From Stenotrophomonas sp. SAU14A_NAIMI4_8 (GTDB lineage: Bacteria; Pseudomonadota; Gammaproteobacteria; Xanthomonadales; Xanthomonadaceae), in contig NZ_CP025999.1 of assembly GCF_003086695.1 (NCBI RefSeq), forward strand, positions 1,777,680 through 1,841,679: DNA of 64,000 nucleotides, read 5' to 3'. Shown piece after piece: positions 23,530-52,490 of this stretch (the first letter of the stretch is position 1; every line of letters starts with the position of its first letter). The notes beneath the pieces were generated by a model. The model was not told the DNA's origin and searched no databases. It saw only the letters and a program-made list of their open reading frames with translations. Position numbers and translations under genes: made by a program.

Positions 23530-23631
23530 GGCGGGGTGGGTCCGGTTGAGGGGGACGCTGCAAGTACGTCCCTGTAAGCTCGGTCGCCGCATCCATGCGG
23601 CTCACGCCCCCTCAACCGGACCCACCCCGCC
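23530..23631 (+). repeat. Long stem-loop with 52-nt core, copy 1
   Basis: Arms of 25 bp pair perfectly (23530-23554 with 23607-23631; left arm begins GGCGGGGTGGGTCCGG). The 52-nt core starts ACGCTGCAAGTACGT and contains an inner hairpin GCCGCAT-CC-ATGCGGC (23586-23601). The flank ATTCCGTGGGATGG precedes it; TTCGACAGTTTCCTGCGATC follows. Confidence 0.9.
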
Positions 23632-23665
23632 TTCGACAGTTTCCTGCGATCTGTCGGAACCACAC

Positions 23666-23704
23666 GGGGTCGGATCCCGTTGCTGCGCAACGGGCTCCGA
23701 CCCC
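23666..23704. repeat. GGGGTC-type palindrome, island 1
   Basis: GGGGTCGGATCCCGTTGC and GCAACGGGCTCCGACCCC flank a TGC loop; 18-bp arms with one internal mismatch at the same place as in the 12047 and 42215 copies. Confidence 0.85.
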
Positions 23705-23732
23705 ATTTTGAATGTCGATATTTGACAGGTTT

Positions 23733-23823
23733 CATCCACGCATGGCGTGGATCTACTGTGTCGACCAAGGTCGACACCTACCAACAGCCGCGCGTCTTAG
23801 TAGATCCACGCCATGCGTGGATG
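23733..23823. repeat. REP trio in the centre of island 1
   Basis: A reversed GTAGATCCACGC-class copy (23733-23756), a GTGTCGACCAAGGTCGACAC copy (23758-23782, ending ACCTACC), and a forward GTAGATCCACGC-class copy (23800-23823). The motif ATTCCTTCGATATCCGACAG follows, as beside the REPs of island 3. Confidence 0.85.
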
Positions 23824-23881
23824 AATTCCTTCGATATCCGACAGATGTGCCGACCAACAGCACGCGGAATGTGTGAGAGGT

Positions 23882-23979
23882 GGGGCGGTGTGGGTGGGCA
23901 GGACCGCAGGCGCCATGGATGGCGCCTACGAGCCTCCATGGATGGATTCACGGCGTGTCCTGCCCACCCACACCGCCCC
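23882..23979 (-). repeat. Long stem-loop with 52-nt core, copy 2
   Basis: Arms of 23 bp pair perfectly (23882-23904 with 23957-23979; arm begins GGGGCGGTGTGGGTGGGC). Core again 52 nt; inner hairpin AGGCGCCAT-GG-ATGGCGCCT (23908-23927). Read on the minus strand the core starts ACGCCG and is preceded by ATTCCGGGGGATGG, so this copy is inverted relative to copy 1. Confidence 0.9.
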
Positions 23980-24090
23980 GCCATCCCCCGGAATGCGGCT
24001 GTTGCTGTTGCTTTGGCTGTTGCCGTTGCTTTGAAGCAGGTGCAGGGCTGCAAGCCCTGCCGAAAACTCCCTTGGGCGTAGAATGCGGGG

Positions 24091-24999
24091 ATGAGCGAAT
24101 CCCTCGAAAACCACTTGCTCCACGGTCGTCGCCAGCGGCCCGACGGGCCCTCGCCGATCGACGTCATTTCGGTCCAGTCGCAACTGGTCTACGGCCACGC
24201 CGGCAACAGCGCCGCGGTGCCGCCGATGCGTGCGCTGGGCCTTCGCGTGGCCGAAGTGCCGACCGTCCTGCTCAGCAACGCGCCGTTCTACGACACCACC
24301 CGCGGCCGCGTGCTGCCCGCTGACTGGTTCGCCGACCTGCTGCAAGGTGCCGCCGAACGTGGCCTGCCGAAACGGGCGAAGATGCTGGTCTCGGGCTACT
24401 TCGGCAGCGCCGCCAATGGCGCGGCGTTCGCCGACTGGCTGGACACCCTGCTGCCCGCCTGCCCGCAACTGCGCTACTGCCTGGACCCGGTGATCGGCGA
24501 TACCCATACCGGTCCCTACGTGGAGCCGGGGCTGGAAGCCATCTTCGCCGAACGGCTGCTGCCGCACGCCTGGCTGGTCACGCCCAATGCCTTCGAGCTG
24601 AATCGCTTGACCGGCATGCCCGCGCTGGCCGAGGCCGATGCCATTGCCGCCGCGCGCACGCTGCTTGATCGCGGCCCGCAATGGGTGATCGCGCACAGCG
24701 TTGGCGGCAACCCGGGCGAACTGGTCACCCTGGCCGTGGGCCGTGAGGAAACCTGGCGCTGGACCTCGCCGCTGCTGCCGGTGGATGTGGCCGGCACCGG
24801 CGATGTGCTGATGGCCCTGGTCGTGTCGTTCCTGCTGCGTGGTGAATCGATGCAGCAGGCGATCTCGCGTGCCGTGGCCGGCACCCATGCGGCGCTCGAG
24901 GCGACGCTGGCGCAGGGCTTCGAGGAGTTCGATGTGATTGCCGCGGCCCCGGCTGCGCTGGCCGACGGCGCCCGCTTCCAGGCCGAACGGCTGGCATGA
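24091..24999 (+). CDS. pdxY: Pyridoxal kinase PdxY
   Basis: 302-residue ribokinase-fold enzyme that phosphorylates pyridoxal with ATP in the PLP salvage pathway. Features: VISVQSQLVYGHAGNSAAVP near residue 25 (substrate lid), LRYCLDPVIGD, TPNAFELNRLTG, and the anion-hole motif VAGTGDVLMA with the catalytic Asp. The start lies 30 bases after island 1. The stop overlaps the next gene (ATGA), so pdxY and tyrA are probably co-translated. Confidence 0.94.
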   Translation: MSESLENHLLHGRRQRPDGPSPIDVISVQSQLVYGHAGNSAAVPPMRALGLRVAEVPTVLLSNAPFYDTTRGRVLPADWFADLLQGAAERGLPKRAKMLVSGYFGSAANGAAFADWLDTLLPACPQLRYCLDPVIGDTHTGPYVEPGLEAIFAERLLPHAWLVTPNAFELNRLTGMPALAEADAIAAARTLLDRGPQWVIAHSVGGNPGELVTLAVGREETWRWTSPLLPVDVAGTGDVLMALVVSFLLRGESMQQAISRAVAGTHAALEATLAQGFEEFDVIAAAPAALADGARFQAERLA

Positions 25000-26120
25000 C
25001 CGCTTCGCAGGCACGCACGCCGCGCACGGTCGGCATCGTTGGCAGCGCCGGCGCCTACGGGCGCTGGCTGACCCGTTTCTTCCAGCAGCACATGCAGCTG
25101 CAGGTGATCGGCCACGACCCGGCCGACCCCACCTCACATTCGCCGGAGCAGCTGCTGGCACAGGCCGACGTGCTGGTGTTCTCCGCACCGATCCGGCATA
25201 CGCCGGCGCTGATTGCCCGCTACGTGGAACAGTCGGGCGGGCGCGAGGCCGGGCGCCTGTGGCTGGACGTGACCTCGGTGAAGGAAGCACCGGTACAGGC
25301 GATGCTGGCCTCGCAGGCCGAGGTGGTCGGGCTGCACCCGATGACCGCGCCGCCGAAGGCGCCCACGCTGAAAGGCCGGGTGATGGTGGTCTGCGAGGCG
25401 CGGCTGCAGCAGTGGCAGCCGTGGGTGGATGCGCTGTGCAGCGCCCTTCAGGCCGAGTGCGTGCGCGCCACGCCGCAGCACCACGACCAGATGATGGCGC
25501 TGGTGCAGGCGATGGTGCATGCCACCCATCTGGCCCAAGCCGGCGTGCTGCGCGAATACCAGCCGCAGTTGGGTGACCTGGCGGCGATGATGCCGTATCG
25601 CTCGGCGTCCTTCGAGCTGGATACGGCGATCATTTCGCGCATCCTGTCGTTGAACCCGTCCATCTACGAGGACATCCAGTTCGGCAACCCGTATGTGGCG
25701 CCGATGCTGGAAAAGCTGGTCGGTCATCTGCAGCGCCTGCAGCAGCAGGTGGGGCAGGGCGACGATGCGGCGCGCGGTGCGTTCCGTGAGCAGTCGTTGG
25801 CGGCCAACCACGCGGCGTTCGGCGAGCCCGCGCTGGCGGCGGGCAACTACACCTTCGAACGGGTGGGTTACCTGCTGGCCGACCTGACCGAGCGCAACGC
25901 GCTGTCGGTGCACCTGCCGGAAGATCGCCCCGGCTCGCTGCGCGAACTGCTGAACGTGTTCGAGCAGCATGGCATCAGCCTGGCGTCGATCCATTCCTCG
26001 CGCACGCCGGCCGGCGAAGTGCACTTCCGCATCGGCTTCGTGGCCGGCAGTGACGTCGCTGCCATCGCCCTGGCGGCGGCGGACGTGGATGCCAGTGGCA
26101 TCGGCCGGGTGCTGGCCTAG
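24996..26120 (+). CDS. tyrA: Prephenate dehydrogenase with C-terminal ACT domain
   Basis: 374 residues; converts prephenate to 4-hydroxyphenylpyruvate in tyrosine synthesis. NAD-binding motif GIVGSAGAYGRWL near the N-terminus, the family motif VGLHPMTAP (catalytic His), and helical dimer residues DQMMALVQAMVHATHLAQAG. An ACT-like regulatory domain (about residues 300-374, LPEDRPGSLRELLNVFEQHG) suggests feedback control by tyrosine. Overlaps pdxY by 4 bases. Confidence 0.92.
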   Translation: MTASQARTPRTVGIVGSAGAYGRWLTRFFQQHMQLQVIGHDPADPTSHSPEQLLAQADVLVFSAPIRHTPALIARYVEQSGGREAGRLWLDVTSVKEAPVQAMLASQAEVVGLHPMTAPPKAPTLKGRVMVVCEARLQQWQPWVDALCSALQAECVRATPQHHDQMMALVQAMVHATHLAQAGVLREYQPQLGDLAAMMPYRSASFELDTAIISRILSLNPSIYEDIQFGNPYVAPMLEKLVGHLQRLQQQVGQGDDAARGAFREQSLAANHAAFGEPALAAGNYTFERVGYLLADLTERNALSVHLPEDRPGSLRELLNVFEQHGISLASIHSSRTPAGEVHFRIGFVAGSDVAAIALAAADVDASGIGRVLA

Positions 26121-26126
26121 TCGTAT

Positions 26127-26172
26127 TCATCCACAGGGGATGTGGATGGTTTCTGCGTAAAGGTGTGGATAA
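26127..26172. promoter_or_regulatory. Cluster of DnaA-box-like sequences
   Basis: TCATCCACA (26127-26135), TGTGGATGG (26141-26149) and TGTGGATAA (26164-26172). The third is a perfect reverse TTATCCACA box; the others differ by one and two bases. An AT-richer stretch (GGCGAAAAATTGGCC) follows. No replication gene is nearby. Confidence 0.45.
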
Positions 26173-26237
26173 CCGCGCGCAGCCCTTGGCAGGCAATGCT
26201 GTCAAGACGATTGGCGAAAAATTGGCCACACATTTTT

Positions 26238-26293
26238 GTAGCGTCGAGCCATGCTCGACGCATCCCCCGTGTCGACCAAGGTCGACATCTACC
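26238..26293 (+). repeat. Two REP-type palindromes
   Basis: GTAGCGTCGAGCC-ATGCTCGACGC (26238-26261) and GTGTCGACCAAGGTCGACAT ending CTACC (26269-26293), between tyrA and a small convergent gene. Confidence 0.8.
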
Positions 26294-26326
26294 GGTCACC
26301 GGGCCGGGCCATGCCGGGCGGCCCGA

Positions 26327-26521
26327 TCAGATCGTCAGGTGCAGTTCGCCACCGGTGGTGGTGAATTCGCGGCCGTTGCGTACCAGGTGCCGGCCATCGT
26401 CCAGTTCGTAGCGCGGGGTGGCTTCGGACGCATGCCCGCTGCCATCGGCATCGGGCTTGAATTCGATGATGACATGGGTTTCGCCGTGGCTGTCCACGGC
26501 GGGAAACTGACGGAACGACAT
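26327..26521 (-). CDS. Small protein of unknown function (64 residues)
   Basis: Begins MSFRQFPAVDSHGETHVIIE and ends GREFTTTGGELHLTI. Strong AGGAG seven bases before the ATG (26521), and a hydrophilic, foldable composition with several beta-strand-like segments. The longer frame to 26656 runs into the ABC transporter gene and is rejected. Homologous small proteins occur widely in xanthomonads as uncharacterised genes, as far as I know. No role can be assigned. Confidence 0.7.
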   Translation of the reverse strand: MSFRQFPAVDSHGETHVIIEFKPDADGSGHASEATPRYELDDGRHLVRNGREFTTTGGELHLTI

Positions 26522-26591
26522 CGCCCAGCTCCTGCATGCAGCCGGTTCGCTGCGATTCCAGCGTGGGCTGCCCCCCGTTAGCGGGGCGTCA

Positions 26592-28364
26592 TCAATCGAT
26601 GAACTGCAGGCGCGCCAGTTCAGCGTACAGGCCGCCTTCGGCCAACAGCTGCGCATGGGTGCCTTCGGCCACGATGCGGCCGTGGTCCATCACCACGATG
26701 CGATCGGCCTTGAGCACGGTGGCCAGGCGATGTGCGATCACCAGCGTGGTCCGCCCGGCCATCAGGCGTTCCAGTGCCTGCTGTACGCCATGTTCGCTCT
26801 GCGCGTCCAGCGCGCTGGTGGCTTCGTCCAGCAGCAGGATCGGTGCATCCTTCAACAACGCACGGGCAATGGCTACGCGCTGCTGCTGGCCGCCGGAAAG
26901 GCGGGCACCGCGCTCGCCCAGTTCGCTGTCGTAACCCTGCGGCAGGGCGCGCAGGAAGGCATCGGCTTCGGCGGCGCGGGCGGCGTCTTCCACCTCGGCA
27001 TCGCTGGCCTGCAGGCGGCCGTAACGGATGTTGTCGCGCGCGCTGGCAGCGAACAGCGTGGGCTGCTGCGGCACCAGTGCCAACTGCGCGCGCAGCGCGG
27101 CCGGGTCGGTTTCGCGCACGTCGATGCCGTCCACGCAGACGCGGCCCTGTTCGGGGTCGTGGAAGCGCAGCAGCATCGACAGCACCGTACTCTTGCCGGC
27201 GCCGGAGGGACCGACCAGGGCCACGGTTTCGCCGGGGCGCACGTGCATGCTGAAGTGGTCCAGTGCGGCCTGGTCAGGCCGCTGCGGGTAGTGGAACACC
27301 ACATCGTTGAACTGGATCTCGCCGCGCAGCGGCTGCGGCAGCGCACGCGGCTGCGCGGGCGCGCGGATTTCGATGTCTTCCTGCAGCAGCTCGCCAATGC
27401 GGCCCATGCCGCCGGCGGCACGCTGCAGTTCGTTCCACACTTCGGCCAGCGCGCCCACCGAACCGCCACCGATCAGGGCATACAGCACGAACTGGCCCAA
27501 GGTGCCGGCGCTGAGGCGGCCGGCGATGACATCGTGGGCGCCGAGCCACAGCACACCCACGATGGCGCCGAAGATCAGCAGGATGGCGCTGGCGGTGACC
27601 AGCGACTGCGCACCGATGCGCCGGCGCGCGGCACCGATGGCATCGGCCAGTGCGTGGTCGAAGCGGCCGCGTTCGTATGGCTCGCGTGCATGCGCCTGCA
27701 CCGTGCGCACCGCGCCCAGGGTTTCGCTGGCCAGGCTGTTGGCATCGGCAATGCGGTCCTGGCTGTTGCGCGCCACCGTGCGCAGCTTGCGTGCGCCGAT
27801 GATGATCGGCAGCACCGCCAGCGGAATGCCCAGCAGTGACCATGCGGCCAGCCGTGGGCTGGTGACGAACAGCATGCCCAGGCTGCCGACCACGGTCACG
27901 CTGCTGCGCAGGGCGACGGACATGGTGGAGCCGACCACGCTGCGCAGCAGCTCGCTGTCGGCGGTCAGCCGCGAGACCAGTTCGCCGCTGCGGCTGCGGT
28001 CGTGGAAACCGGCGCCCAGCTGGATCAGGTGTGCGTACAGCTTGCTGCGCAGGTCGGCCACCACTTTTTCGCCCAGCAGCGATACAAAGTAGAAGCGTGC
28101 GGCAGTGGCCAGGGCCATCACCACGGCCACCAGCATCAACAGGGCGAAGGCGCGGTTGATCTGGCCGCCGCTGCTGAAACCATGGTCGATCATCTGCTTG
28201 ACCGCCGGCGGCAGGCTGAGCGTGGCCGCCGAGGAGATGGCCAGCGCCACCAGCCAGGCACTGAACAGGCCGCGGTGGCGACGCACGAAGGGCCACAGCG
28301 TGCGCAGGCTGCCCAGGCGGCGCAGCGGCGGGGTCGAGGCGGTGGCGTCGTCCTTGTCAGTCAT
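26592..28364 (-). CDS. ABC exporter, fused permease and ATPase (MsbA/LmrA-like)
   Basis: 590-residue half-transporter. Six TM helices lie within residues 25-320 (ABC_membrane type I exporter fold). The nucleotide-binding domain has Walker A VGPSGAGKSTVL, Q-loop LALVPQQPTLFA, signature LSGGQQQRVAIARALL, Walker B ILLLDEATSALD and the H-loop VIAHRLATV. It should act as a homodimer exporting lipid or drug-like substrates. The ATG at 28364 overlaps the preceding yigZ-like stop by 8 bases, implying translational coupling. The substrate is unknown. Confidence 0.92.
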   Translation of the reverse strand: MTDKDDATASTPPLRRLGSLRTLWPFVRRHRGLFSAWLVALAISSAATLSLPPAVKQMIDHGFSSGGQINRAFALLMLVAVVMALATAARFYFVSLLGEKVVADLRSKLYAHLIQLGAGFHDRSRSGELVSRLTADSELLRSVVGSTMSVALRSSVTVVGSLGMLFVTSPRLAAWSLLGIPLAVLPIIIGARKLRTVARNSQDRIADANSLASETLGAVRTVQAHAREPYERGRFDHALADAIGAARRRIGAQSLVTASAILLIFGAIVGVLWLGAHDVIAGRLSAGTLGQFVLYALIGGGSVGALAEVWNELQRAAGGMGRIGELLQEDIEIRAPAQPRALPQPLRGEIQFNDVVFHYPQRPDQAALDHFSMHVRPGETVALVGPSGAGKSTVLSMLLRFHDPEQGRVCVDGIDVRETDPAALRAQLALVPQQPTLFAASARDNIRYGRLQASDAEVEDAARAAEADAFLRALPQGYDSELGERGARLSGGQQQRVAIARALLKDAPILLLDEATSALDAQSEHGVQQALERLMAGRTTLVIAHRLATVLKADRIVVMDHGRIVAEGTHAQLLAEGGLYAELARLQFID

Positions 28365-28953
28365 GCAGGTCGTCGTTGTAGATGCGGATACGATCACGGG
28401 TGGCGTCGCGCAGGCGCGTTTTCAATGCTTCCACCTGCTCTGCGGGCAATTCCACCCGCAGCCGCACACCGTGGCTGTCGAACTGTTCATCGCGTTTTTC
28501 GGCCCCGTGCGCGGGCAGGGCAGCGTGCAGGGCGCCCAGATCCTCGAAAGCGGCGGCCAGTTGCAGCCGTGCCAGTTCCACCAGGGGCTGGCGTGGCGCG
28601 GTGCGCAGGCATTCTGCGGCAGTACCGCCATAGGCGCGTACCAGGCCGCCGGCGCCCAGCTTGATGCCGCCGTACCAGCGCGTGACCACCACCACCACCC
28701 GATCAAAGCCCTGGCCATCAATGGCGGCCAGGATCGGCCGCCCGGCCGTGCCGGCGGGCTCGCCATCATCGCTGGACCGGTAATCCTGGCCGTGCCGGTA
28801 GGCCCAGCAGTTGTGGGTGGCGTCGGCCACGGCGACCTGCTGCAGGAACGCCAACGCCGCCGCGGCACTGTCGATGGGCGCGGCATGGGCGGTGAAGCGG
28901 CTGTGCTTGATCTCCAGCGTATGGCTGACGGGCTGGGCGAGGGTATCGGGCAT
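28357..28953 (-). CDS. YigZ/IMPACT family protein
   Basis: 198 residues. The UPF0029 signature is RWYGGIKLGAGGLVRAYGG, preceded by HNCWAYRHG and SSDDGEPAGTAGRPIL. The C-terminal ~65 residues form the second small domain. IMPACT homologues in eukaryotes modulate the GCN1-GCN2 stress pathway; the bacterial role is not settled. ATG 28953 gives the usual start (MPDTLAQPVSHTLEIK). First gene of a two-gene unit with the ABC exporter. Confidence 0.9.
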   Translation of the reverse strand: MPDTLAQPVSHTLEIKHSRFTAHAAPIDSAAAALAFLQQVAVADATHNCWAYRHGQDYRSSDDGEPAGTAGRPILAAIDGQGFDRVVVVVTRWYGGIKLGAGGLVRAYGGTAAECLRTAPRQPLVELARLQLAAAFEDLGALHAALPAHGAEKRDEQFDSHGVRLRVELPAEQVEALKTRLRDATRDRIRIYNDDLHD

Positions 28954-28987
28954 TGCACGCATTCTACGGCGTTGCCACCGGCTTGCC

Positions 28988-29923
28988 TCAGTCGTCCAGC
29001 AGCGGGCGCAGATCCTTGGGCAGGCGCGATTCCGGGTATTGCTGCAGGTAGCGCTCCAGGCTGATGCGGGCCAGGTCGCGCTGGCCGGCATCGCGGCGCT
29101 CGCGGATCTTCTGCAGCCACTGCCGGCGCGGCAGTTTCGCGTCGGCCAGTACTTCAGCGTGTACGTCCTGTGCGCTCAGTCCGGCATCGCTGGAGCGACG
29201 CAGCATCACCCCGGGCGCGCGGGCGGCGGGCGCACTGGCCGGCGCCGGGCTGGCCTTGAAGGCGGCCGGTGCTTCGCGCTGCTGTTGGCGTGCGGCGGCT
29301 GCCGGTGCTGCTTCGGCGGCCATCTCGGCGCTGTCCGCTGCGGCGGCTTCCGCTGCAGGCGCGGGCGCGGCGTACGCCACGGGCGCCGGCGGTGCTGGCG
29401 GTGCCGGTGGCGCAACAACATTTTTGGCGACCGGTGCGGCCGCCGGTTGCGGTTCGGGTGCTGCCGGCGCGGGCGCCATCTGCGGTGCAGGCGCGGCCTG
29501 GGCCGGTGGTGGGGGCGGCAGGGTCGCCGGTTCGGCGGCGCGGTCGACCACCGCAGGCTCAGCCGCGGGCGCTGCGGCGTCTGCGGCTGCGTGTTCGGCC
29601 TGTGCCGGTGCAGTGGCTTCCATCGGTGGCGGTGCAGGGGGTTCCGGCCGCATCTGCCAGGCAATGCCCACGGCCAGCACGGTCGAGGCGGCAATGCCGA
29701 ACACCGCCGGCCAGCGCCCGCCCTTGCGCACACGCCGGGCCCGATCAGCCGGCTGCGGCGTTGCGGCGGCGCCCTGTGCCGGGGCCGCCGTGTCCTGCAC
29801 CGCGGCGCGTGCAGCGGCCAGGATGGTCGCGTCCAGCGATGCCGGCGGCGCCTGTTCGCTGCGGCGCCCCAGCAGGCCGGCCAGTGCGCGCTCTTCCGGG
29901 GTCAGTGGATCGTCTCGGTTCAT
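28988..29923 (-). CDS. Membrane-anchored partner of the ECF sigma factor (anti-sigma-like)
   Basis: 311 residues. A cytoplasmic N-terminal region (DPLTPEERALAGLLGRRSEQ) is followed by a single TM segment near residues 72-90 (PAVFGIAASTVLAVGIAW). A ~150-residue Ala/Pro-rich linker comes next, then a compact C-terminal helical domain (QWLQKIRERRDAGQRDLARI). It overlaps the sigma gene stop-start by 4 bases. Topology and coupling resemble anti-sigma factors, yet no ZAS zinc motif or RskA domain is evident, so this is inferred. The linker is long enough to cross part of the periplasm. Confidence 0.72.
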   Translation of the reverse strand: MNRDDPLTPEERALAGLLGRRSEQAPPASLDATILAAARAAVQDTAAPAQGAAATPQPADRARRVRKGGRWPAVFGIAASTVLAVGIAWQMRPEPPAPPPMEATAPAQAEHAAADAAAPAAEPAVVDRAAEPATLPPPPPAQAAPAPQMAPAPAAPEPQPAAAPVAKNVVAPPAPPAPPAPVAYAAPAPAAEAAAADSAEMAAEAAPAAAARQQQREAPAAFKASPAPASAPAARAPGVMLRRSSDAGLSAQDVHAEVLADAKLPRRQWLQKIRERRDAGQRDLARISLERYLQQYPESRLPKDLRPLLDD

Positions 29924-30543
29924 GCGTTCAGTCCCGCACGCAGCTTGTCCATCGCATAGCGCAGCCGCGATTTCACGGTCTCCCGGCCAACGCCGGTGAT
30001 CTGGCCGATCTCCTCCAGGCTCAGTTCCTGTTCCAGCCGCAGTTGCAGCACTTCGCGCTGTTCGGGCGGCAGGTCTTCCATCGCGCGCTGGATACGCCGG
30101 CGCTGCTCGAATTCAGACAGTTCAGCTTCCGGCGTGTGCCCATCTTCCAGTGCTGCCAGGCGCAGGTCGGCATCGGCCGGTGCGGCGGGCCGGTGGCGCG
30201 CCGCGCGCCAGTGGTCGTTCAGCCGGTTGTGGGCGATGCGGAACAGCCATGTGCTGAATGCGGCATCAGGCTGCCAACCGGCGCGCGCGCTGATCACCCG
30301 TTGCCAGACGTCCTGGAAGATCTCCTCGGCCAGCGCGTTGTCGCGCAGTTGCCGCAGCAGGAAACCGAACAGGCGCTTGCGATGCCGCGCATACAGGCTT
30401 TCGAACGCATGCAGGTCGCCACCGGCCCAGGCCAGCATCAAGGCTTCGTCGGTTGGCAGGGCGGCGGCGTCCACGCTGCACAGAGTAAGCGCTGCGGGCG
30501 GTGGCGCATAGCCGGTGGCAGGCAGGGGCAGGGCAGCGTTCAA
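29920..30543 (-). CDS. ECF-type RNA polymerase sigma factor
   Basis: 207 residues as drawn from a TTG start. Region 2: ALMLAWAGGDLHAFESLYAR, AEEIFQDVWQRVI and FSTWLFRIAHNRLNDHWRA. Region 4: LPPEQREVLQLRLEQELSLE and the HTH IGQITGVGRETVKSRLRYAM. No good Shine-Dalgarno is visible at the TTG; a GTG at 30474 would give a more typical N-terminus, so the start is uncertain. Operon with the anti-sigma-like gene (4-base overlap). Confidence 0.88.
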   Translation of the reverse strand: MNAALPLPATGYAPPPAALTLCSVDAAALPTDEALMLAWAGGDLHAFESLYARHRKRLFGFLLRQLRDNALAEEIFQDVWQRVISARAGWQPDAAFSTWLFRIAHNRLNDHWRAARHRPAAPADADLRLAALEDGHTPEAELSEFEQRRRIQRAMEDLPPEQREVLQLRLEQELSLEEIGQITGVGRETVKSRLRYAMDKLRAGLNA

Positions 30544-30662
30544 AGGGCGCGTTGCGTTCGAAGGTGCACGCGATAACGGCCCGCCATGCGAATCGGGGTT
30601 GTTGGGCTTCCATTGCCCCCCCGGTGGCGCGCTATGCTCGGTGACTCAGGGGAGGCGCTGCG

Positions 30663-33539: not shown

Positions 33540-33558
33540 GCCGCCGCGCGCGGGTACA

Positions 33559-34152: not shown

Positions 34153-34174
34153 GGTGTGCCTGTCTCTTGATGCG

Positions 34175-34222
34175 GAAACGAAAACGCCCCGCCGGCAACC
34201 GGTTCAGCGGTTGCGGGCGGGG
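34175..34222 (-). terminator. Terminator after the class III aminotransferase gene
   Basis: CCCCGCCGGCAACCG (34187-34201) pairs with CGGTTGCGGGCGGGG (34208-34222) with one mismatch. On the minus strand it is followed by CGTTTTCGTTT. It lies 196 bases after the aminotransferase stop and just before the LOG gene. Confidence 0.75.
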
Positions 34223-34285
34223 TGTGTGGTGATTATGAGGCCTTGGGCGGGGTTGTGCCCGACTGCGCGCTGTCCACCCTGCTTT

Positions 34286-34400
34286 GTAGAGTCGAGCTTG
34301 CTCGACTGAGGTTCGTCCGGATATCGGCAAAAACCAGTCGAGCAAGCTCGACTCTACCAAGGCGGGCGGCAACGGCGCAGTCGAGCAAGCTCGACTCTAC
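34286..34400. repeat. Three SMAG-type REPs
   Basis: One forward GTAGAGTCGAGCTTGCTCGA copy (34286-34309) and two reversed copies (34335-34357 and 34379-34400), same class as the 9501-9741 cluster. Confidence 0.88.
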
Positions 34401-34417
34401 GAACGCGGGGCGTTGCC

Positions 34418-40880: not shown

Positions 40881-40896
40881 CGGGACGACACGCACA

Positions 40897-41877: not shown

Positions 41878-41902
41878 TCCTTGCGGCACGCAGCACACAG
41901 AG

Positions 41903-41926
41903 AACCCCGCGCAAGCGGGGTTTTTT
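41903..41926 (+). terminator. Rho-independent terminator of the sec operon
   Basis: AACCCCGC-GCAA-GCGGGGTT stem with a run of T (41919-41926) directly after, 25 bases past secF. Island 2 begins 5 bases later. Confidence 0.92.
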
Positions 41927-42008
41927 GTGGGCAGGACTGCGCCCTGCACCTGCTTGGAGCAACGGCAAATGCCAAATCCAAAGCCAGAGCGGCATTCCGT
42001 GGGATGGC

Positions 42009-42106
42009 GGGGCGGTGTGGGTGGGCAGGACACGCCGCAAGTACGTCACTGTAGGCTCGTAGGCGCCATCCATGGCGCCTGCGGTCCTGCCCACCCACAC
42101 CGCCCC
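42009..42106 (+). repeat. Long stem-loop with 52-nt core, copy 3
   Basis: Arms of 23 bp pair perfectly (42009-42031 with 42084-42106) and are identical to copy 2. The 52-nt core begins ACGCCGCAAGTACGTCACTG; inner hairpin AGGCGCCAT-CC-ATGGCGCCT (42061-42080). Confidence 0.9.
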
Positions 42107-42214
42107 ACCTCTGACAGGTTCACGCGGCGGTTGGTAACGGCGCCTGTTGTTCCGCGCGGCTGTTGGTAGGTGTCGACCTTGGTCGGCACATCTTTCGGAT
42201 ACCGAAATCCGTCT

Positions 42215-42253
42215 GGGGTCAGAGCCCGTTGCGGAGCAACGGGATCTGACCCC
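42215..42253. repeat. GGGGTC-type palindrome, island 2
   Basis: GGGGTCAGAGCCCGTTGC and GCAACGGGATCTGACCCC around GGA; same 18-bp arms and same mismatch position as the other two copies, here in opposite orientation. Confidence 0.85.
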
Positions 42254-42290
42254 AGAACGCCGTTCCGACAGATCGCGAAAAACTGTCGAA

Positions 42291-42392
42291 GGCGGGGTGG
42301 GTCCGGTTGCGGGGGTGTCCGCGGCATGGATGCCGCGGCCAAGCCTACACGGACGTACTTGCGGCGTCCCCCGCAACCGGACCCACCCCGCC
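42291..42392 (-). repeat. Long stem-loop with 52-nt core, copy 4
   Basis: Arms of 25 bp pair perfectly (42291-42315 with 42368-42392), differing from copy 1 at one paired position (A/T pair replaced by C/G). Core 52 nt; inner hairpin CCGCGGCAT-GG-ATGCCGCGG (42319-42338). Read on the minus strand the core begins ACGCCGCAAGTACGTCCGTG. Confidence 0.9.
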
Positions 42393-42501
42393 ATCCCCCG
42401 AATAGCCCGCTCTTGAATTTGACGTTGCCATTGCCGTTGCCTCGGCAGGTGCAGGGCTGCAAGCCCTGCAAAAGAGAAACCCCACCCTACGCCTGCGTCG
42501 G

Positions 42502-42530
42502 TTGTGCAATCGCCCCCCGCGCACTACGAT
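42502..42530 (+). promoter_or_regulatory. Candidate fabV promoter
   Basis: TTGTGC (42502-42507), 17-base spacer, TACGAT (42525-42530), 52 bases before the fabV ATG. Confidence 0.45.
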
Positions 42531-42582
42531 CCTGCGGTTCGCGTGCGCCCGCGTGCGCCGCATCTGCCAACCCGAGGTATCC

Positions 42583-43842: not shown

Positions 43843-43854
43843 GATCGAAGGTAA

Positions 43855-43919
43855 CGCCGGGCATGGCCCGGCGGATGCCTTGAATGCCGCTGCGCTCGCC
43901 GGGCATGGCCCGGCGCTAC
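43855..43919. repeat. Two REP-type palindromes (GCCGGGC class)
   Basis: CGCCGGGCATGGCCCGGCG at 43855-43873 and again at 43897-43915 followed by CTAC, in the gap between fabV and the convergent FimX-like gene. Confidence 0.82.
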
Positions 43920-43950
43920 CGGTGCAGATCTGCGGCCCGGCGCATGCCGC

Positions 43951-46020: not shown

Positions 46021-46111
46021 GCACTGCTCCCCAATCTGCGAACCTAGATACACGATGCGCGGCGGCACGTCCATGCGCTGGCCCCGGGCGAGCACCGAAC
46101 GGCGATGCGGT

Positions 46112-47296
46112 TCACACCACGCTGCCGGCGGCGTGACCGCTGGCCCACGCCCACTGGAAGTTGTAACCGCCCAGCCAGCCGGTCACATCCAACACCTCGC
46201 CGACGAAATGCAGGCCGGGCACGCGCTTGGATTCGAACGTGGAAGACGACACTTCGGCCGTATCCACCCCGCCCAGGGTGACTTCGGCGGTGCGGTAGCC
46301 TTCGGTGCCGCTGGCCACCAGCGGGAATGCGCCCAGCACCTGCGCGGCCTGGCGCAGCACCGGTTCGTCGAGCTGGCGCACCGGCCGGTCCGGCAGCCAG
46401 TGCTCGCACAGGCGCTGGGCCAGCCGCTTGGGCAGCACCTCGCCCAGCACCGTGCGCAGTTCGGCCGCAGGGCGCTCGCGCTTCATCTGCCGCAGCCACT
46501 CGCCGGCGTCCTGGCCGGGCAGCAGGTCGATTTCCAGGGTGTCGCCGGGCTGCCAGAACGAGGAAATCTGCAGAATGGCCGGCCCGCTGACGCCGCGATG
46601 GGTGAGCAGCATGAAGTTCTGGAAGCTCTTGCCATTGCAGTGCGCCTGCACCGGCAGGGCCACCCCGCTCAGCTCGGCCAGGCGTTCCTGGTGCTTGCCA
46701 CTGAGGGTGAGCGGCACCAGGCCGGCGCGGGTGGGCAGCACGTTGTGGCCGAACTGGCGGGCCAGTTCGTAGCCGAAGCCGGTGGCGCCCAAACTGGGAA
46801 TGGACAGCCCGCCGGTAGCCACCACCAGCGATGCGCAATGGAACAGCCCCTGCGTGGTATGCACGCGGAAGCCATCGCTGGCGTGTTCGATGCGCTCGAT
46901 GCTGCACTGGGTGCGGATCTGCGCGCCCGCGGCCTGGCATTCCTCCACCAGCATCTTCACGATCAGCTTCGATGAGACATCGCAGAACAGCTGGCCCAGC
47001 TCTTTTTCGTGATAGGCGATGCCGTGCTTCTCCACCATGTCGATGAAGTGCCACGGCGAATAGCGGGCCAGCGCTGATTTGCAGAAATGCGGGTTGGCCG
47101 ACAGGAAGTTGGCCGGGGTGGTGCCGGTATTGGTGAAGTTGCAGCGCCCGCCGCCGGACATCAGGATCTTCTTGCCGACCTTGTTGGCGTGGTCCAGCAC
47201 CTGCACCTGGCGCCCGCGGCGGCCGGCGGTGAGCGCGGTCATCAGCCCGGCGGCACCGGCGCCGATGACCACCACGTCGCAGCGGGTAATGCTCAT
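46112..47296 (-). CDS. HI0933/YhiN-family flavoprotein oxidoreductase
   Basis: 394 residues; FAD-binding protein of uncharacterised substrate. FAD motif VVVIGAGAAGLMTALTAGRR at residues 9-28, KILMSGGGRCNFTN near 44-57, LVVATGGLSIPSLGATGFGY in the middle, and the closing FVGEVLDVTGWLGGYNFQWA which is diagnostic for the family. Overlaps the stop of the yaeQ-like gene by 4 bases (ATGA), suggesting a two-gene unit. Confidence 0.92.
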   Translation of the reverse strand: MSITRCDVVVIGAGAAGLMTALTAGRRGRQVQVLDHANKVGKKILMSGGGRCNFTNTGTTPANFLSANPHFCKSALARYSPWHFIDMVEKHGIAYHEKELGQLFCDVSSKLIVKMLVEECQAAGAQIRTQCSIERIEHASDGFRVHTTQGLFHCASLVVATGGLSIPSLGATGFGYELARQFGHNVLPTRAGLVPLTLSGKHQERLAELSGVALPVQAHCNGKSFQNFMLLTHRGVSGPAILQISSFWQPGDTLEIDLLPGQDAGEWLRQMKRERPAAELRTVLGEVLPKRLAQRLCEHWLPDRPVRQLDEPVLRQAAQVLGAFPLVASGTEGYRTAEVTLGGVDTAEVSSSTFESKRVPGLHFVGEVLDVTGWLGGYNFQWAWASGHAAGSVV

Positions 47297-47841
47297 GCCT
47301 TGGCGCGCTTGCGCCAGCTGGGAATCACGTCCAGCTGGATCTGGTCGTTGAGGATCTGCACTTCGCCATCCTGGATGAGCACGCTGAAACGCATGGCGCG
47401 CTGGATCTGCTGGCCCCACTGTTCAACGAAGGTGCCGTCCAGGTCGACCACCGACAGGTTGTCGAAACGGGCCAGGCCCTTGCCCTGCTTGTTCCACCAG
47501 ATATCGGACGCGTTGCCGGCGTAGTTCACCACCTGCACCGACCGGCTGCGGTTGCTGGCCTTGCGGATGCGCGATTCGTCCGGGTGGCCCAGATCGATCC
47601 ACTGCAGGATGTCGCCGGTGTAGTCGTGCTGCCACAGGTCCGGCTCGTCGTCGGTGCTCAGGCCGCGGCCGAACTCCAGGCGGTCATCGGCGTTCAGGGC
47701 GAAGGCCAGCAGGCGCACCATCAGGCGCTCGTCGGTTTCGGACGGGTGCTGGGCCAGGGTCAGGTTGTGGGTCGCGTAGTAGCCGCGATCCATGTCGCTG
47801 ATCTGCAGTTCGGCCTTGCGGATGGTGGCGGTGAGGGCCAT
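47293..47841 (-). CDS. yaeQ: YaeQ family protein
   Basis: 182 residues with a PD-(D/E)XK nuclease-like fold according to family descriptions. Seen: MALTATIRKAELQISDMDRG, HPSETDERLMVRLLAFAL, FGRGLSTDDEPDLWQHDYTG and WIDLGHPDESRIRKASNRSR, all conserved in YaeQ. YaeQ once was reported to act like RfaH, but this is not well established. Couples to the YhiN-like gene. Confidence 0.93.
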   Translation of the reverse strand: MALTATIRKAELQISDMDRGYYATHNLTLAQHPSETDERLMVRLLAFALNADDRLEFGRGLSTDDEPDLWQHDYTGDILQWIDLGHPDESRIRKASNRSRSVQVVNYAGNASDIWWNKQGKGLARFDNLSVVDLDGTFVEQWGQQIQRAMRFSVLIQDGEVQILNDQIQLDVIPSWRKRAKA

Positions 47842-47962
47842 GGGCGTTCCGGGGGCAAAGACCGCCCATGATAGAGGTTTGCTGGCGGGGTGTCCGTGGC
47901 AGGGGTGTCTGCGCGGTGTCAACGGTGGCACTCTGGCCGCGTCTTCCCTGCGTGTGTGTTCG

Positions 47963-48850
47963 ATGAGCCTGCCCAGCCGCCTGCAGCTGCCCCCCGGTGA
48001 CTGGCCGACCCTGCTGGACGGCCTGTGCGCGCGCTTTCCGCGCATTGATCGTGGCCAGTGGCTGGATCGTTTCGGCCGTGGGCGCGTGCAGGATGCGCAG
48101 GGCAGGGCGCTTGCGGCCGACCAGCCGTGGCAGGTCGGGCTGGAGATCGTCTACTTCCGCGAAGTCAGCGCGGAGCCGGACATTCCGTTCAGCGAGACGG
48201 TGCTGTACCAGGACGCGCATCTGCTGGTGGCCGACAAGCCGCACTATCTGCCGGTCACCCCGGCCGGGGGCTATGTGCGCGAGACCCTGCTGGCGCGCCT
48301 GGTGGCACGCACCGGCAATCCCGACCTGGTGCCCCTGCATCGGCTGGATCGGCTGACCGCCGGGCTGGTGCTGTTCTCGCAGCGGCCCGATTCGCGCGAC
48401 GCCTACCAGCGCCTGTTCCGTGAACGGCGCATCGAAAAGATCTACGAGGCACTGGCGCCGGCCCTGCCAGGGCTGCCGTTCCCGCAGCAGCGGTTGAGCC
48501 GGATCGTGCCGGGTGAGCCCTTCTTCCGCATGGCCGAAATGGCGGGCGAGCCGAATGCGCGCACCCGCATCGAGGTGATTGCCGAGCACGGCGCGGCCTG
48601 GCACTACCGGCTGTGGCCGGAAACCGGGCGCAAGCACCAGCTGCGCGTGCACATGGCGGCGCTGGGGGCGCCGATCCTGGGCGATGACCTGTATCCACGG
48701 CTGCAGCCGTCGGCCGATCCGCTGCAGGCGCCGCCGCTGCAACTGCTGGCGCGGGCCCTGGCCTTCCAGGATCCGCTCAGCGGGGAGCCGCGTGTGTTCC
48801 GCAGCGAGCGCTCGCTGCACTGGCCGGCCGGTCCGGTGCCGGGCGCCTGA
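47963..48850 (+). CDS. RluA-family pseudouridine synthase
   Basis: 295 residues. The catalytic motif HRLDRLTAGLVLFS (Asp of HRLDR) and RIEKIYEALAP are typical; the C-terminal ETGRKHQLRVHMAALGAPIL and GDDLYP complete the RsuA/RluA signature. An N-terminal extension of about 80 residues lacks a clear S4 domain. Xanthomonad homologues are annotated as general rRNA or tRNA pseudouridine synthases; the target U is unknown. Divergent from yaeQ (121 bases between the starts). Confidence 0.9.
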   Translation: MSLPSRLQLPPGDWPTLLDGLCARFPRIDRGQWLDRFGRGRVQDAQGRALAADQPWQVGLEIVYFREVSAEPDIPFSETVLYQDAHLLVADKPHYLPVTPAGGYVRETLLARLVARTGNPDLVPLHRLDRLTAGLVLFSQRPDSRDAYQRLFRERRIEKIYEALAPALPGLPFPQQRLSRIVPGEPFFRMAEMAGEPNARTRIEVIAEHGAAWHYRLWPETGRKHQLRVHMAALGAPILGDDLYPRLQPSADPLQAPPLQLLARALAFQDPLSGEPRVFRSERSLHWPAGPVPGA

Positions 48851-48862
48851 TCAGCGCGGCCG

Positions 48863-48904
48863 GGTCACCGCGGCCTGGTCGCCGTGGCTTGGTCACCGTG
48901 GCTT
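48863..48904. repeat. Three tandem 14-bp repeats
   Basis: GGTCACCGCGGCCT, GGTCGCCGTGGCTT and GGTCACCGTGGCTT in direct array. The third unit overlaps the 3' end of the DUF188 gene. Confidence 0.8.
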
Positions 48905-49381
48905 GACCCGGGCCAGCCAGCGGTCCAGTTCGGCCGCGAACAGCTGGCGGTCGCGCGCGCCCAGCGGCGGTGGGCCACCGGTCTGCACGCCCGCACCGCG
49001 CAGTTCCTCCATGAAATTGCGCATGGACAGGCGCTCGGCCATGTTGTTGGCGGTGTACAGCTGGCCGCGCGGGTTCAGCGCCACGGCCTTCTTTTCCAGT
49101 ACCAGCGCCGCCAGCGGGATGTCCTGGGTGACCACCAGGTCACCGGCGGCCACCCGTTCGACGATGGCGCTGTCGGCCACGTCCAGGCCCTGCGGCACTT
49201 GCAGCGAGCGGATCCAGCGTGAGGGTGGGGTGCGCAGCCACTGGTTGGCGACCAGGGTCAGCTCCAGGCCGACCCGTTCGGCGGCCCGGAAAAGGATGTC
49301 GCGAATGACCGTCGGGCAGGCGTCGGCATCGACCCAGATGCGTGGACGGGCGTGTTCAGCGGGGGTTTCAGCTTCAGTCAT
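48893..49381 (-). CDS. YaiI/YqxD family protein (DUF188)
   Basis: 162 residues with a PIN-like fold expected. N-terminal [20 protein letters not shown] carries the acidic DADACP motif, followed by [40 protein letters not shown] and [12 protein letters not shown]-like folds suggest nuclease activity, which is not shown for this family. Convergent with the RluA-family gene. Confidence 0.93.
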
Positions 49382-49683
49382 CAGCCCAGTGTAGGGTAGG
49401 AAAAACCTGAATAGGGACTCGGGTTTAGGCCCGATCTGGGTCCAGCCCTTGTCACGCCTAGCGGGCGGGGCCCTGCCGCTGAATGCCGGGGCTATCGCTT
49501 TTTGCTGAAAACACGCGTATCGTTCGATCCACTGTGTTTGCTAGGGTCACCGTGAATCGTGGCCTGGTGCAGTTGATCTCACGATCCGCTCATCGATCCG
49601 CTTTACCAACGCCTGCAACTCAGTCTCGGCCCCGATTCCCGGTGGCTGCGATTTTTTCAACATGTGTTTCAGGAGTTAGTCAA
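49382..49683 (+). other. 302-base gap with the cold-shock gene leader
   Basis: No gene is supported in this gap between divergent genes. It is AT-richer than its neighbours near 49495-49545 (CGCTTTTTGCTGAAAACAC), where a promoter would be expected, but I cannot pick a clear -35/-10 pair. Cold-shock genes often have leaders longer than 100 bases that refold with temperature, and this gap would allow one. Confidence 0.4.
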
Positions 49684-49893
49684 ATGTCTGATCGTCAGAC
49701 CGGCACCGTCAAGTGGTTCAACGACGCCAAGGGCTTCGGCTTCATCACCCCGGAAAGCGGCCCGGACCTGTTCGTGCACTTCCGTGCCATCCAGGGCACC
49801 GGCTTCAAGACCCTGCAGGAAGGCCAGAAGGTTACCTTCATCGCCGTCCAGGGCCAGAAGGGTATGCAGGCTGACCAGGTGCAGGCGGTCTAA
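49684..49893 (+). CDS. CspA-family cold-shock protein
   Basis: 69 residues, one OB-fold cold-shock domain. RNP1 KGFGFITP and RNP2 LFVHF are intact, preceded by [15 protein letters not shown] lies 8 bases before the ATG. Acts as an RNA chaperone. The strong terminator at 49922 makes it a single-gene unit. Confidence 0.96.
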
Positions 49894-49921
49894 TCCGTCT
49901 GCTACCGTTTGGTAGCCAGAA

Positions 49922-49954
49922 CGCCGGAAGCGAAAGCTTCCGGCGTTTTTTTTT
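49922..49954 (+). terminator. Rho-independent terminator of the cold-shock gene
   Basis: CGCCGGAAGC-GAAA-GCTTCCGGCG, a perfect 10-bp stem with a GNRA tetraloop, followed by nine T. Confidence 0.95.
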
Positions 49955-50010
49955 TGCGAGGTGCATGCATCGCGCGCGGTACGATGCGGGCTTCCCTCAG
50001 GAGTTTCCGC

Positions 50011-50700
50011 ATGCGCATCGTCCACCACCTGGAAAACTCGCGTTCACTGCGCGTGCTGTGGATGCTGGAGGAACTGGGGCTGGACTACGAACTGCGGCGC
50101 TACCCGCGCGATCCGAAGACGCTGCTGGCGCCGCCGGAGCTTCGGCAGATCCATCCGCTGGGCAAGGCGCCGGTGCTGCAGGACGGTGACCAGGTGCTGG
50201 CCGAATCCGGCGCGATCCTGGACTACCTGGTCGACCGCTACGACACCCAGCGCGTGCTGTCGCCGTCGCCGGTGCCGGCCGACAGTGCCGAGCGCATCGC
50301 CTATCGCTACTGGCTGCATTACGCCGAAGGGTCGGCCATGCCGCCGCTGCTGCTGACCCTGGTGGTCGGGCGGATCCGCAGCGCACCGATGCCGTTCTTC
50401 GCCCGCCCGATCGCACGCCGCATCGCCGACAAGGCCGAGCGCAGCTTCATCGGCCCGCAGCGCCGCCTGCATCTGGACTGGATGGAGCGGCGCCTGGCCG
50501 AAAGCCCGTGGTTCGCCGGTGAACGGTTCAGTGCGGCCGACATCCAGATGAGTTTCCCGATCCAGGCCGCGGCCGCCCGTGGCGGCGGGCTGGACGACAA
50601 GCCGGCGTTGCGGGGCTTCCTGGAACGCATCGGCCAGCGCCCGGCCTACCAGCGCGCCGAGGCCCACGGCGGCGCACTGCAGGCCCTGCGCGGCGATTGA
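50011..50700 (+). CDS. Glutathione S-transferase family protein
   Basis: 229 residues. Thioredoxin-like N-terminal domain: MRIVHHLENSRSLRVLWMLE with Ser in the catalytic position, IHPLGKAPVLQDGDQVLAES (cis-Pro and the GSH-binding ES). The all-helical C-terminal domain has GERFSAADIQMSFPIQAA. Similar to yeast GTT1-like bacterial GSTs. CAGGAG lies 7-8 bases before ATG 50011. The gene for SelO follows after 31 bases. Confidence 0.9.
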   Translation: MRIVHHLENSRSLRVLWMLEELGLDYELRRYPRDPKTLLAPPELRQIHPLGKAPVLQDGDQVLAESGAILDYLVDRYDTQRVLSPSPVPADSAERIAYRYWLHYAEGSAMPPLLLTLVVGRIRSAPMPFFARPIARRIADKAERSFIGPQRRLHLDWMERRLAESPWFAGERFSAADIQMSFPIQAAAARGGGLDDKPALRGFLERIGQRPAYQRAEAHGGALQALRGD

Positions 50701-50731
50701 GGCCGGGGCCGACCGCCCCCATCCTGCTGGC

Positions 50732-52297
50732 ATGGATACCCACGCCCCCCGTTTCGACAACCGCCTGTTGACCGCCCTGCCGGGCGACCCCGAATCCGGC
50801 CCACGCCGCCGCGAGGTGCGCGAGGCGGCCTGGTCGTCGGTGCTGCCGACCCCTGTCGCGGCGCCGAGCGTGCTGGCCTGGTCGCCGCAGGTTGCCGCGC
50901 TGCTCGGCTTTGACGCCGCCGATGTGCAGGGCGCCGACTTCGCCCAGGTCTTCGGTGGCAACGCGCTGTACGACGGCATGCAGCCGTGGGCGGCCAACTA
51001 CGGTGGCCACCAGTTCGGCCATTGGGCCGGGCAACTGGGCGACGGGCGCGCGATATCGCTGGGTGAGCTGGTGGCCGCCGACGGGCGCCATTGGGAGCTG
51101 CAGTTGAAGGGCGCCGGGCCCACGCCCTATTCGCGCGGCGCCGATGGTCGCGCCGTGCTGCGCTCGTCCATCCGCGAATTCCTGTGCAGCGAAGCCATGC
51201 ATCACCTGGGCGTGCCGACCACGCGTGCGCTGTCGCTGGTCGGCACCGGCGAGGACGTGGTGCGCGACATGTTCTACGACGGCCACCCGCGCGCCGAGCC
51301 CGGCGCGATCGTCTGCCGCGTGGCGCCGTCGTTCATGCGCTTCGGCACGTTCGAACTGCCTGCCTCGCGCGGCGAGACCACGCTGCTGAAACAACTGGCC
51401 GACGTCTGCATCGCCCGCGATTTCCCTGAACTGCAGGGGGAAGGTGAGGCGCTGTACGGCGACTGGTTCGCGCAGATTGCCGTGCGCACCGCCGAGCTGA
51501 TGGCGCACTGGATGCGTGTCGGCTTCGTGCATGGGGTGATGAACACCGACAACCTGTCCGTGCTCGGCCTGACCATCGATTACGGCCCGTACGGCTGGGT
51601 GGAGGATTACGACCCGGACTGGACGCCCAACACCACCGACGCGCAGGGGCGCCGCTACCGCTTTGGCACCCAGCCGCAGGTGGCGTACTGGAATCTCAAC
51701 CGGCTGGCGCAGGCACTGTCGCCGCTGTTCGCCGATGTGCAGCCGCTGCAGGCCGGATTGGCCGCGTTCCAGTCCACCTTCGTGGCCTGCACGCGGCGCG
51801 ATGCGGCGGCCAAGCTGGGGCTGGCGGCAGCTGACGATGAGGATCTGCAGCTGTACCTGCGCTGGCAGCAACTGCTGCAGGACGGCGGCATGGACATGAC
51901 CTTGGCGTGGCGTGCGTTGATGGGCGTGGATGTGGCCGCGCCGGACGTGGCCGCGCTGGGCGATGTGTATTACGACCAGGCACGCCGACAGGTAGTGCAG
52001 GCGCCGTTGCAGCAGTGGCTGCAGGACTACGCGGCGCGGCTGCGTGTGGACCCGCTGTCGGCCGAAGCACGGCAGGCGAAGATGGCGGCGGCCAATCCGC
52101 TGTACGTGCTGCGCAACTGGCTGGCGCAGGAGGCCATCGATCGCGCCGAGCAGGGCGACCTGGGTGGCGTGCACGCGCTGCAGGAGGTGCTGCGCGATCC
52201 GTACACGCAGCGGCCGGGGCTGGAACATTACGCCGGCAAGCGGCCGGCCTGGGCCGAGCACCGCGCCGGCTGCTCGATGCTGTCCTGCAGTTCGTAG
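50732..52297 (+). CDS. selO: Protein adenylyltransferase SelO (YdiU)
   Basis: 521-residue pseudokinase-fold enzyme that transfers AMP to Ser/Thr/Tyr of redox proteins. Family features: GGHQFGHWAGQLGDGRAISL (nucleotide loop), LQLKGAGPTPYSRGADGRAV, GVPTTRALSLVGTGEDVVRD, VGFVHGVMNTDNLSVLGLTI (HGxxNTDN metal site) and DYGPYG. The C-terminus ends CSMLSCSS; the penultimate Cys position matches the selenocysteine of eukaryotic SelO. Located after a GST gene, consistent with a thiol-redox theme. The stop lies 12 bases before island 3. Confidence 0.95.
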   Translation: MDTHAPRFDNRLLTALPGDPESGPRRREVREAAWSSVLPTPVAAPSVLAWSPQVAALLGFDAADVQGADFAQVFGGNALYDGMQPWAANYGGHQFGHWAGQLGDGRAISLGELVAADGRHWELQLKGAGPTPYSRGADGRAVLRSSIREFLCSEAMHHLGVPTTRALSLVGTGEDVVRDMFYDGHPRAEPGAIVCRVAPSFMRFGTFELPASRGETTLLKQLADVCIARDFPELQGEGEALYGDWFAQIAVRTAELMAHWMRVGFVHGVMNTDNLSVLGLTIDYGPYGWVEDYDPDWTPNTTDAQGRRYRFGTQPQVAYWNLNRLAQALSPLFADVQPLQAGLAAFQSTFVACTRRDAAAKLGLAAADDEDLQLYLRWQQLLQDGGMDMTLAWRALMGVDVAAPDVAALGDVYYDQARRQVVQAPLQQWLQDYAARLRVDPLSAEARQAKMAAANPLYVLRNWLAQEAIDRAEQGDLGGVHALQEVLRDPYTQRPGLEHYAGKRPAWAEHRAGCSMLSCSS

Positions 52298-52394
52298 GGG
52301 TGTTCTCTTGCAGGGCTTGCAGCCCTGCACCTGCGCAATGCAACGGCAACGGCAACGGCGAAAGCAACAGCAACAGCTGCATTCCGTGGATGGC

Positions 52395-52490
52395 GGGGCG
52401 GTGTCGGATTGCGGGGACGCCGCAAGTACGTGCTTGCAGGCTTGGCAGCCGCATCCATGCGGCTGACACCCCGCAATCCGACACCGCCCC
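52395..52490 (+). repeat. Long stem-loop with 52-nt core, copy 5
   Basis: Arms of 22 bp pair perfectly (52395-52416 with 52469-52490; arm begins GGGGCGGTGTCGGATTGC). The 52-nt core begins ACGCCGCAAGTACGTGCTTG; inner hairpin AGCCGCAT-CC-ATGCGGCT (52447-52464). Confidence 0.9.

Follow-up and report, generated by a model that had tools for sequence, protein, structure and literature searches.

A high-copy intergenic stem-loop of Stenotrophomonas with two GGA hairpins, a candidate docking site for RsmA/CsrA

Described RNAs and repeats closest to the stem-loop

CsrB/RsmB, RsmY and RsmZ each come from one gene and carry many GGA sites. The element described here has GGA hairpins of the same consensus, but it offers two sites per element and comes in about 100 elements. 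It is a stem-loop of about 100 nt, and five copies of it lie in a 64,000-nt stretch of Stenotrophomonas sp. SAU14A_NAIMI4_8 (contig NZ_CP025999.1, positions 1,777,680 to 1,841,679; hereafter, the window). Two Rfam families come close to it. TwoAYGGAY (RF01731), which shares the Rfam clan CL00106 with CsrB, is listed from the human gut, gamma-Proteobacteria and Clostridiales (PMC2864571). CsrA binding has been proposed for it in Clostridia, in an account that in 2014 called this work in progress and awaiting validation (PMC4333381). Ysr224 (RF02770) is multi-copy in Yersinia ruckeri, where the copies are expressed with different profiles (PMC12112432), and it figures among the 20 most prevalent small RNAs (sRNAs) in one list (PMC9029176). 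Closer in host range is RsmU of Xanthomonas campestris, described as an RsmA-binding RNA from a 3' untranslated region (UTR), limited to Xanthomonas; the same source reports the known CsrB/RsmZ-type homologues as missing from Xanthomonas genomes (PMC7694677). Compared by description, RsmU is an RsmA-binding RNA in the same bacterial family as our genome, but it is one locus. Among DNA repeats, the repetitive extragenic palindromes (REPs) and bacterial interspersed mosaic elements that go with RAYT genes, and the terminal inverted repeats (TIRs) of TIRYT genes, are like the element intergenic, palindromic, of high copy number and often in opposed pairs (PMC3733652).

The initial annotation, made from the letters of the window alone, recognized no named RNA or repeat family. 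The element does belong with known families: Rfam holds Ysr224 for the other strand, and TwoAYGGAY matches below its threshold. At gathering level, an Rfam search of the window returned tmRNA alone (8334-8687, minus strand), and a search of 20 diverse loci returned neither family. Ysr224, with a threshold of 70, matches Yersinia similis at 126.5 bits and Pectobacterium at 73.3 bits. R1, a covariance model that we made from 30 copies of this genome, matches the same places (L261 and L287) on the opposite strand at 65.2 and 58.6 bits, respectively. Ysr224 is therefore the same element on the opposite strand, although the Rfam model describes that other strand with a different structure, and three copies from our genome score 22.1-32.9 bits against it, below 70. 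The likeness to TwoAYGGAY is on the same strand; in the model alignment, two GGA hexaloop hairpins stand on an outer stem. The best match in our genome has 40.3 bits, under the gathering score of 43. Of 270 candidates, 150 were scored; the list up to E 10 has 11 matches, of which 10 fell on copies (out of about 108), all on the strand that bears GGA. We see in the element a divergent branch, present in very many copies, of a kind that Rfam has already glimpsed under two names. We found no report of TwoAYGGAY as a hundred-copy genomic repeat, nor, in the open-access literature without supplements, of such repeats as CsrA/RsmA sites.

Paired structure and two GGA loops

The five stem-loops were annotated correctly, with perfect arms around a core of exactly 52 nt (Table 1). 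As claimed, copies 1 and 4 differ by a compensated A/T to C/G change, four of the five copies keep the core start, and all five have CATCCATG. Either strand of each copy folds at z −8.3 to −10.8 relative to shuffles, with 0 of 200 shuffles equal in each case, and the energies of folding lie between −75 and −84 kcal/mol. The initial annotation looked to many more copies, with a 52-nt core and arms that covary, as support, and such copies do occur in the rest of the genome. In a BLAST comparison to the whole genome, all 40 places scored among the matches listed are copies. R1 gave 127 matches, counting weak and opposite-strand ones, and cmsearch on fetched stretches gave 109 at E up to 1e-9. With one low-quality match excluded (L009:1163-1340), the full-length set is 108 copies; 103 are in register with the 52-nt core, and the other five were dropped from the stem tally. 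The arm types are many more than the three first named.

Covariation was counted in 30 of 35 extracted copies; the five left out are two that duplicate window copies, two that equal other copies and one that has a deletion. The named structure is paired in 97.4% of cells, and double changes occur at 28 of 41 pairs. Shuffles average 80.3% paired and 17.6 pairs with double changes, and not one of 500 does as well as the real sequences; if the partner is slid by 1-3 columns, pairing falls to 38-47%. The counts favour the named structure, because it was drawn from the same sequences. At an orthologous locus, copy 1 and six orthologues show paired arm changes with some broken pairs, as do the seven sequences of copy 2. 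Two of the copy-2 sequences have quite different arms, which may reflect replacement rather than stepwise change. This comparison leaves out L300, at a contig end, and three orthologues of 23464-24060 (L296, L297 and L303), in which nested-hairpin inserts were seen by eye in the hairpin loops of the stem-loops. L297 apparently has inserts in both loops of one copy; the insert in L296 folds into further hairpins, two of them with AGGAC or AGGACA loops. The arms are the most variable part of the element and the core loops the most conserved. The covariation in the 30 copies and at the orthologous locus gives good support to the initial claim that a folded structure is under selection or is corrected; the observation is real, and the case for it is stronger than first put.

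The relevant strand seems to be the reverse of the orientation first chosen. On this strand, the GGA strand, the core forms two hairpins, whose loops, A and B, fit CANGGAYG, the consensus of Pseudomonas aeruginosa RsmA, which is near the Escherichia coli consensus from in vitro selection (SELEX) and cross-linking immunoprecipitation (CLIP) (PMC7705225). The initial annotation missed the likely protein partner because the strand it used does not show the GGA loops. Every one of the 108 copies in this genome fits the consensus in loop A, and 101 of them do so in loop B, where all four bases occur at N. That position of loop B carries 0.17 bit, the lowest of the 52 core positions, between neighbours at 1.7-1.8 bits. 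Distant copies were taken from 35 distinct places in three genera of two other families; 29 of them keep the consensus in loop A and 34 in loop B, and none of the 35 lacks GGA in either loop. In copy 2, 20 nt separate the two GGAs. Bridging by CsrA is described for sites 10-63 nt apart, with an optimum above 18 (PMC7652899), and the spacing of copy 2 lies inside that range.

A test independent of the model came from scanning the loop-B half, as a pattern, over the genomes of 84,980 species. It gave at least 120 stretches with 133 usable sites; most titles name Gammaproteobacteria, and several sites are from Stenotrophomonas or Xanthomonas, so that not all are independent. The 40 nt upstream are not covered by the pattern, and the best hairpin there has GGA in its loop at 115 of the 133 sites and lacks it at 18; its loop fits the full consensus at 82. 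At 106 of those 115 sites, the upstream GGA stands 19-21 nt from the loop-B GGA. In control stretches 260-300 nt upstream, GGA is in 8 of 105 hairpin loops (125 stretches).

A CsrA search found one match in this genome, which we take to be an intact CsrA, and a match in 58 of 61 genomes (our own and 60 relatives). The RsmZ, CsrB and RsmY models gave nothing over cut-off in our genome; CsrB alone had a control genome that scored positive. Taking the observed paired structure, loop consensus, fixed spacing, spread and csrA gene together, we consider that the copies are probably dispersed RNA elements with GGA loops that serve as RsmA/CsrA-binding sites, and that they may titrate RsmA/CsrA. We infer the binding itself, the transcription of the copies here and the role of binding as the target of selection. 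Each copy would encode a structured RNA on the strand opposite to the one first read. A long, freely varying stem, in which the arms need only pair, would present the two CANGGAYG hairpins, and the 20-nt spacing of the GGAs would let one CsrA dimer clamp both. Transcripts running through the roughly 100 intergenic copies could then offer many two-site docking points. They could thereby titrate RsmA/CsrA at the host mRNA, a local effect, or act as a global sponge. Of these steps, the sponge is the least certain, and it is a bold extension.

The mismatches of the arms bear on which strand acts. Many read C.A on the strand first used, and the same cells are G.U wobbles on the GGA strand. At pairs 0-21 of the 103 in-register copies, 27 G.U stand against 7 A.C on the GGA strand (one-sided binomial 0.0004), and the outer stem of the distant copies has 30 G.U, 8 A.C and 15 others, two rows at contig ends being dropped. 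It has to be asked here whether the Ysr224 strand is instead the acting one, as an ordinary sRNA, with the GGA loops a by-product of the inverted structure. The Rfam annotation is on that strand, and Ysr224 copies are expressed in Y. ruckeri, as cited above. But the loop constraint reads CANGGAYG on the GGA strand only, the mismatches favour wobble pairs there, and TwoAYGGAY, also on that strand, belongs to the CsrB clan. We regard an acting Ysr224 strand as very improbable.

Several points weigh against the RsmA/CsrA interpretation. At N, loop A has T in 106 of 108 copies and is thus almost invariant, which means that a free N is seen, within this genome, in loop B alone. SELEX hairpins have mostly four or fewer contiguous pairs (PMC7652899), and the loop A stem, at 7 bp, is longer than most. 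Two of the five window copies, 3 and 5, have no GGA in loop B. As for the mismatches, the limit at pair 21 was chosen after the counts were seen; over all 25 arm pairs there are 29 other mismatches beside 49 G.U and 9 A.C (2575 cells); and with each position-and-pair type counted once, the asymmetry falls to a weak 15 to 7. It is support and not proof, since the copies share ancestry. Rfam annotates Ysr224 on the strand opposite the GGA strand. The absences of RsmZ and RsmY are weak because no control genome was positive for either. Solitary copies between co-directional genes have the GGA strand with the genes in 10 cases and against them in 9, and this lack of a preferred orientation is at odds with selection for copies that lie in sense in 3' UTRs. 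By eye, no promoter was identified in the flanks listed (no promoter scan was made). Finally, template-switch correction during replication can yield perfect arms with high arm diversity, as seen here.

Copies, mosaics and neighbouring genes

R1 matches 32 of the 61 genomes. Within the genus, these are 28 of 37, our own included, and 14 of the 28 have at least 64 matches; elsewhere in the order, outside the genus, they are 4 of 24. Matches number 38 and 46 in two genomes of another family, and 3 and 9 in two further genomes. In a class-wide sample, 43 of 274 genomes have a match, again with our own. Searched with copy 3, phage and plasmid collections gave no match in either, and a phage or plasmid element was rejected on that search. 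An AT-rich metagenome-assembled Saccharophagus genome (L188:3107-3750) has four tandem same-strand stem-loops at a spacing of about 180 nt.

Table 1. Stem-loops, loops and composites in the window (strand, GGA strand)
Feature	Positions	Strand	Sequence or description
Stem-loop copy 1	23530..23631	−	25-bp arms, 52-nt core
Copy 1 loop A	23590..23597	−	CATGGATG
Copy 1 loop B	23567..23574	−	CAGGGACG
Stem-loop copy 2	23882..23979	+	23-bp arms, 52-nt core
Copy 2 loop A	23914..23921	+	CATGGATG
Copy 2 loop B	23937..23944	+	CATGGATG
Stem-loop copy 3	42009..42106	−	23-bp arms, 52-nt core
Copy 3 loop A	42067..42074	−	CATGGATG
Copy 3 loop B	42044..42051	−	CAGTGACG; GGA lost
Stem-loop copy 4	42291..42392	+	25-bp arms, 52-nt core
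Copy 4 loop A	42325..42332	+	CATGGATG
Copy 4 loop B	42348..42355	+	CACGGACG
Stem-loop copy 5	52395..52490	−	22-bp arms, 52-nt core; without a matched partner close by
Copy 5 loop A	52452..52459	−	CATGGATG
Copy 5 loop B	52429..52436	−	CAAGCACG; GGA lost
Composite	23464..24060		Head-to-head copies 1 and 2, GTAG-type REPs between them; outer palindromes (GCAGGGC..GCCCTGC) at 23464-23482 and 24042-24060
Composite	41929..42469		Head-to-head copies 3 and 4; right outer palindrome at 42451-42469; left side a degenerate palindrome, left edge approximate (by eye)
Composite	52310..52836		Copy 5 the sole matched stem-loop; outer palindromes at 52310-52328 and 52818-52836

Neighbouring copies less than 1.5 kb apart are head-to-head in 35 of 37 cases, with the GGA strands outward. 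The pairs are embedded in mosaics with GTAG REPs, short runs resembling CAACGG and palindromes at the outer ends, a layout that recurs at other loci; in the composite of copy 5, the partner seems to have been lost. None of the 35 head-to-head partnerships joins 5' arms more than 0.9 identical, against 4.0 expected on re-pairing (p 0.005), while the mean 5'-arm identity of partners is not clearly lower (p 0.09). Avoidance of a long perfect inverted repeat would be one explanation for partner arms that differ. A second flank type, unlike the GCAGGGC palindromes of the window, occurs at L016, L020, L024, L026 and others; there, CCGTGGC flanks one side of the stem-loop, and the opposite side has CCACGAGGGGC with CCGTTGGC. 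The window also has a cluster of GTAGAGTCGAGCTTGCTCGACTG palindromes in both orientations at 9501-9709.

No called gene contains any of the 108 copies, the calls being made with a small codon model trained on the window. This placement would agree with a 3'-end element, a very stable stem with incidental loops that, as with many REPs, stops or protects transcripts. The folding energies given above would suit such a role. So would the scarcity of copies in divergent gene pairs, which hold 8 of the 70 paired and 4 of the 38 solitary copies, against 9 of the 43 window gene pairs without the element; this baseline (25 co-directional, 9 convergent, 9 divergent) is small and from the window only. 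Such a stem does not account for arms that vary freely around loops that are the most conserved part, nor for solitary copies without orientation preference, and by eye there is no T run directly after the stem among the flanks listed. We think a 3'-end element with incidental loops distinctly unlikely.

The mosaics raise the other question, whether the element acts as DNA, as a mobile or recombination hairpin with loops recognized by an enzyme of single-stranded DNA and arms kept perfect by template switching. Dispersed copies outside called genes in REP mosaics, the head-to-head arrangement and the inserts in hairpin loops of some orthologous copies are all what one might see of such a hairpin. 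Against this, the stem-loop adjoins none of the five Y1 (HUH) transposase genes found in our genome; what matches beside these genes is REP or TIR sequence from the neighbourhood, or a stretch of 17 nt at E 0.05. Open-frame clusters around 80 diverse loci (best 25 clusters) include at most 6 loci, all Xanthomonas, followed by 5, 5 and 4, and a conserved neighbour gene was rejected on that basis. Strains whose genes are 85-91% identical share site occupancy. No stem-loop match occurs at nine loci of more divergent Stenotrophomonas (L304-L312); with the second flanking gene also not found there, these loci give no clean empty site at which an insertion junction or a target-site duplication could be read. 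A DNA hairpin also leaves unexplained why CANGGAYG should stand in two loops and why G.U should outnumber A.C. On balance, we hold a DNA hairpin to be unlikely.

REPs are defined by a GTAG/GTGG head before a short palindrome (PMC2817692, PMC3686654), whereas the element is about 100 nt long with a G-rich start and no such head. A REP/RAYT or TIRYT repeat was rejected on the Y1 genes just described. The TIR family of S. maltophilia K279a gene 4509 is described as not self-complementary (PMC3733652), a difference by which the element may be distinct from it. The conserved terminal inverted repeats of a miniature inverted-repeat transposable element are missing, the arms being the most variable part. 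At L031:1296-2236, a Y1 transposase gene is flanked by self-complementary repeats of GGGGTCAG, like the TIRs of TIRYT genes, and the window has similar repeats next to copy 1 (23666-23704) and copy 4 (42215-42253). A group I intron match of 67.5 bits was seen at L145:2563-2816.

What distributed RsmA/CsrA sites would mean

A wider picture can be drawn, although we put it forward tentatively and it could easily prove wrong. A mobile or once-mobile RNA element of Gammaproteobacteria may be spreading CsrA/RsmA docking sites through the genome. In Stenotrophomonas, in which the CsrB, RsmY and RsmZ models gave nothing over threshold, about 100 scattered two-site elements would together replace the classical sponge RNAs. 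The total read-through transcription of the intergenic copies would then determine how much regulator is free, and copies facing each other would keep one in the sense orientation for either neighbour.

If RsmA/CsrA does dock on the GGA loops, a repeat that resembles genomic clutter would supply many scattered sites to a regulator that acts globally on metabolism, motility and biofilm. Ysr224 and TwoAYGGAY, filed apart on opposite strands, would be joined, and the proposal of CsrA binding by TwoAYGGAY would reach many genera of Gammaproteobacteria. The control of RsmA in the Xanthomonadaceae would be concerned as well.

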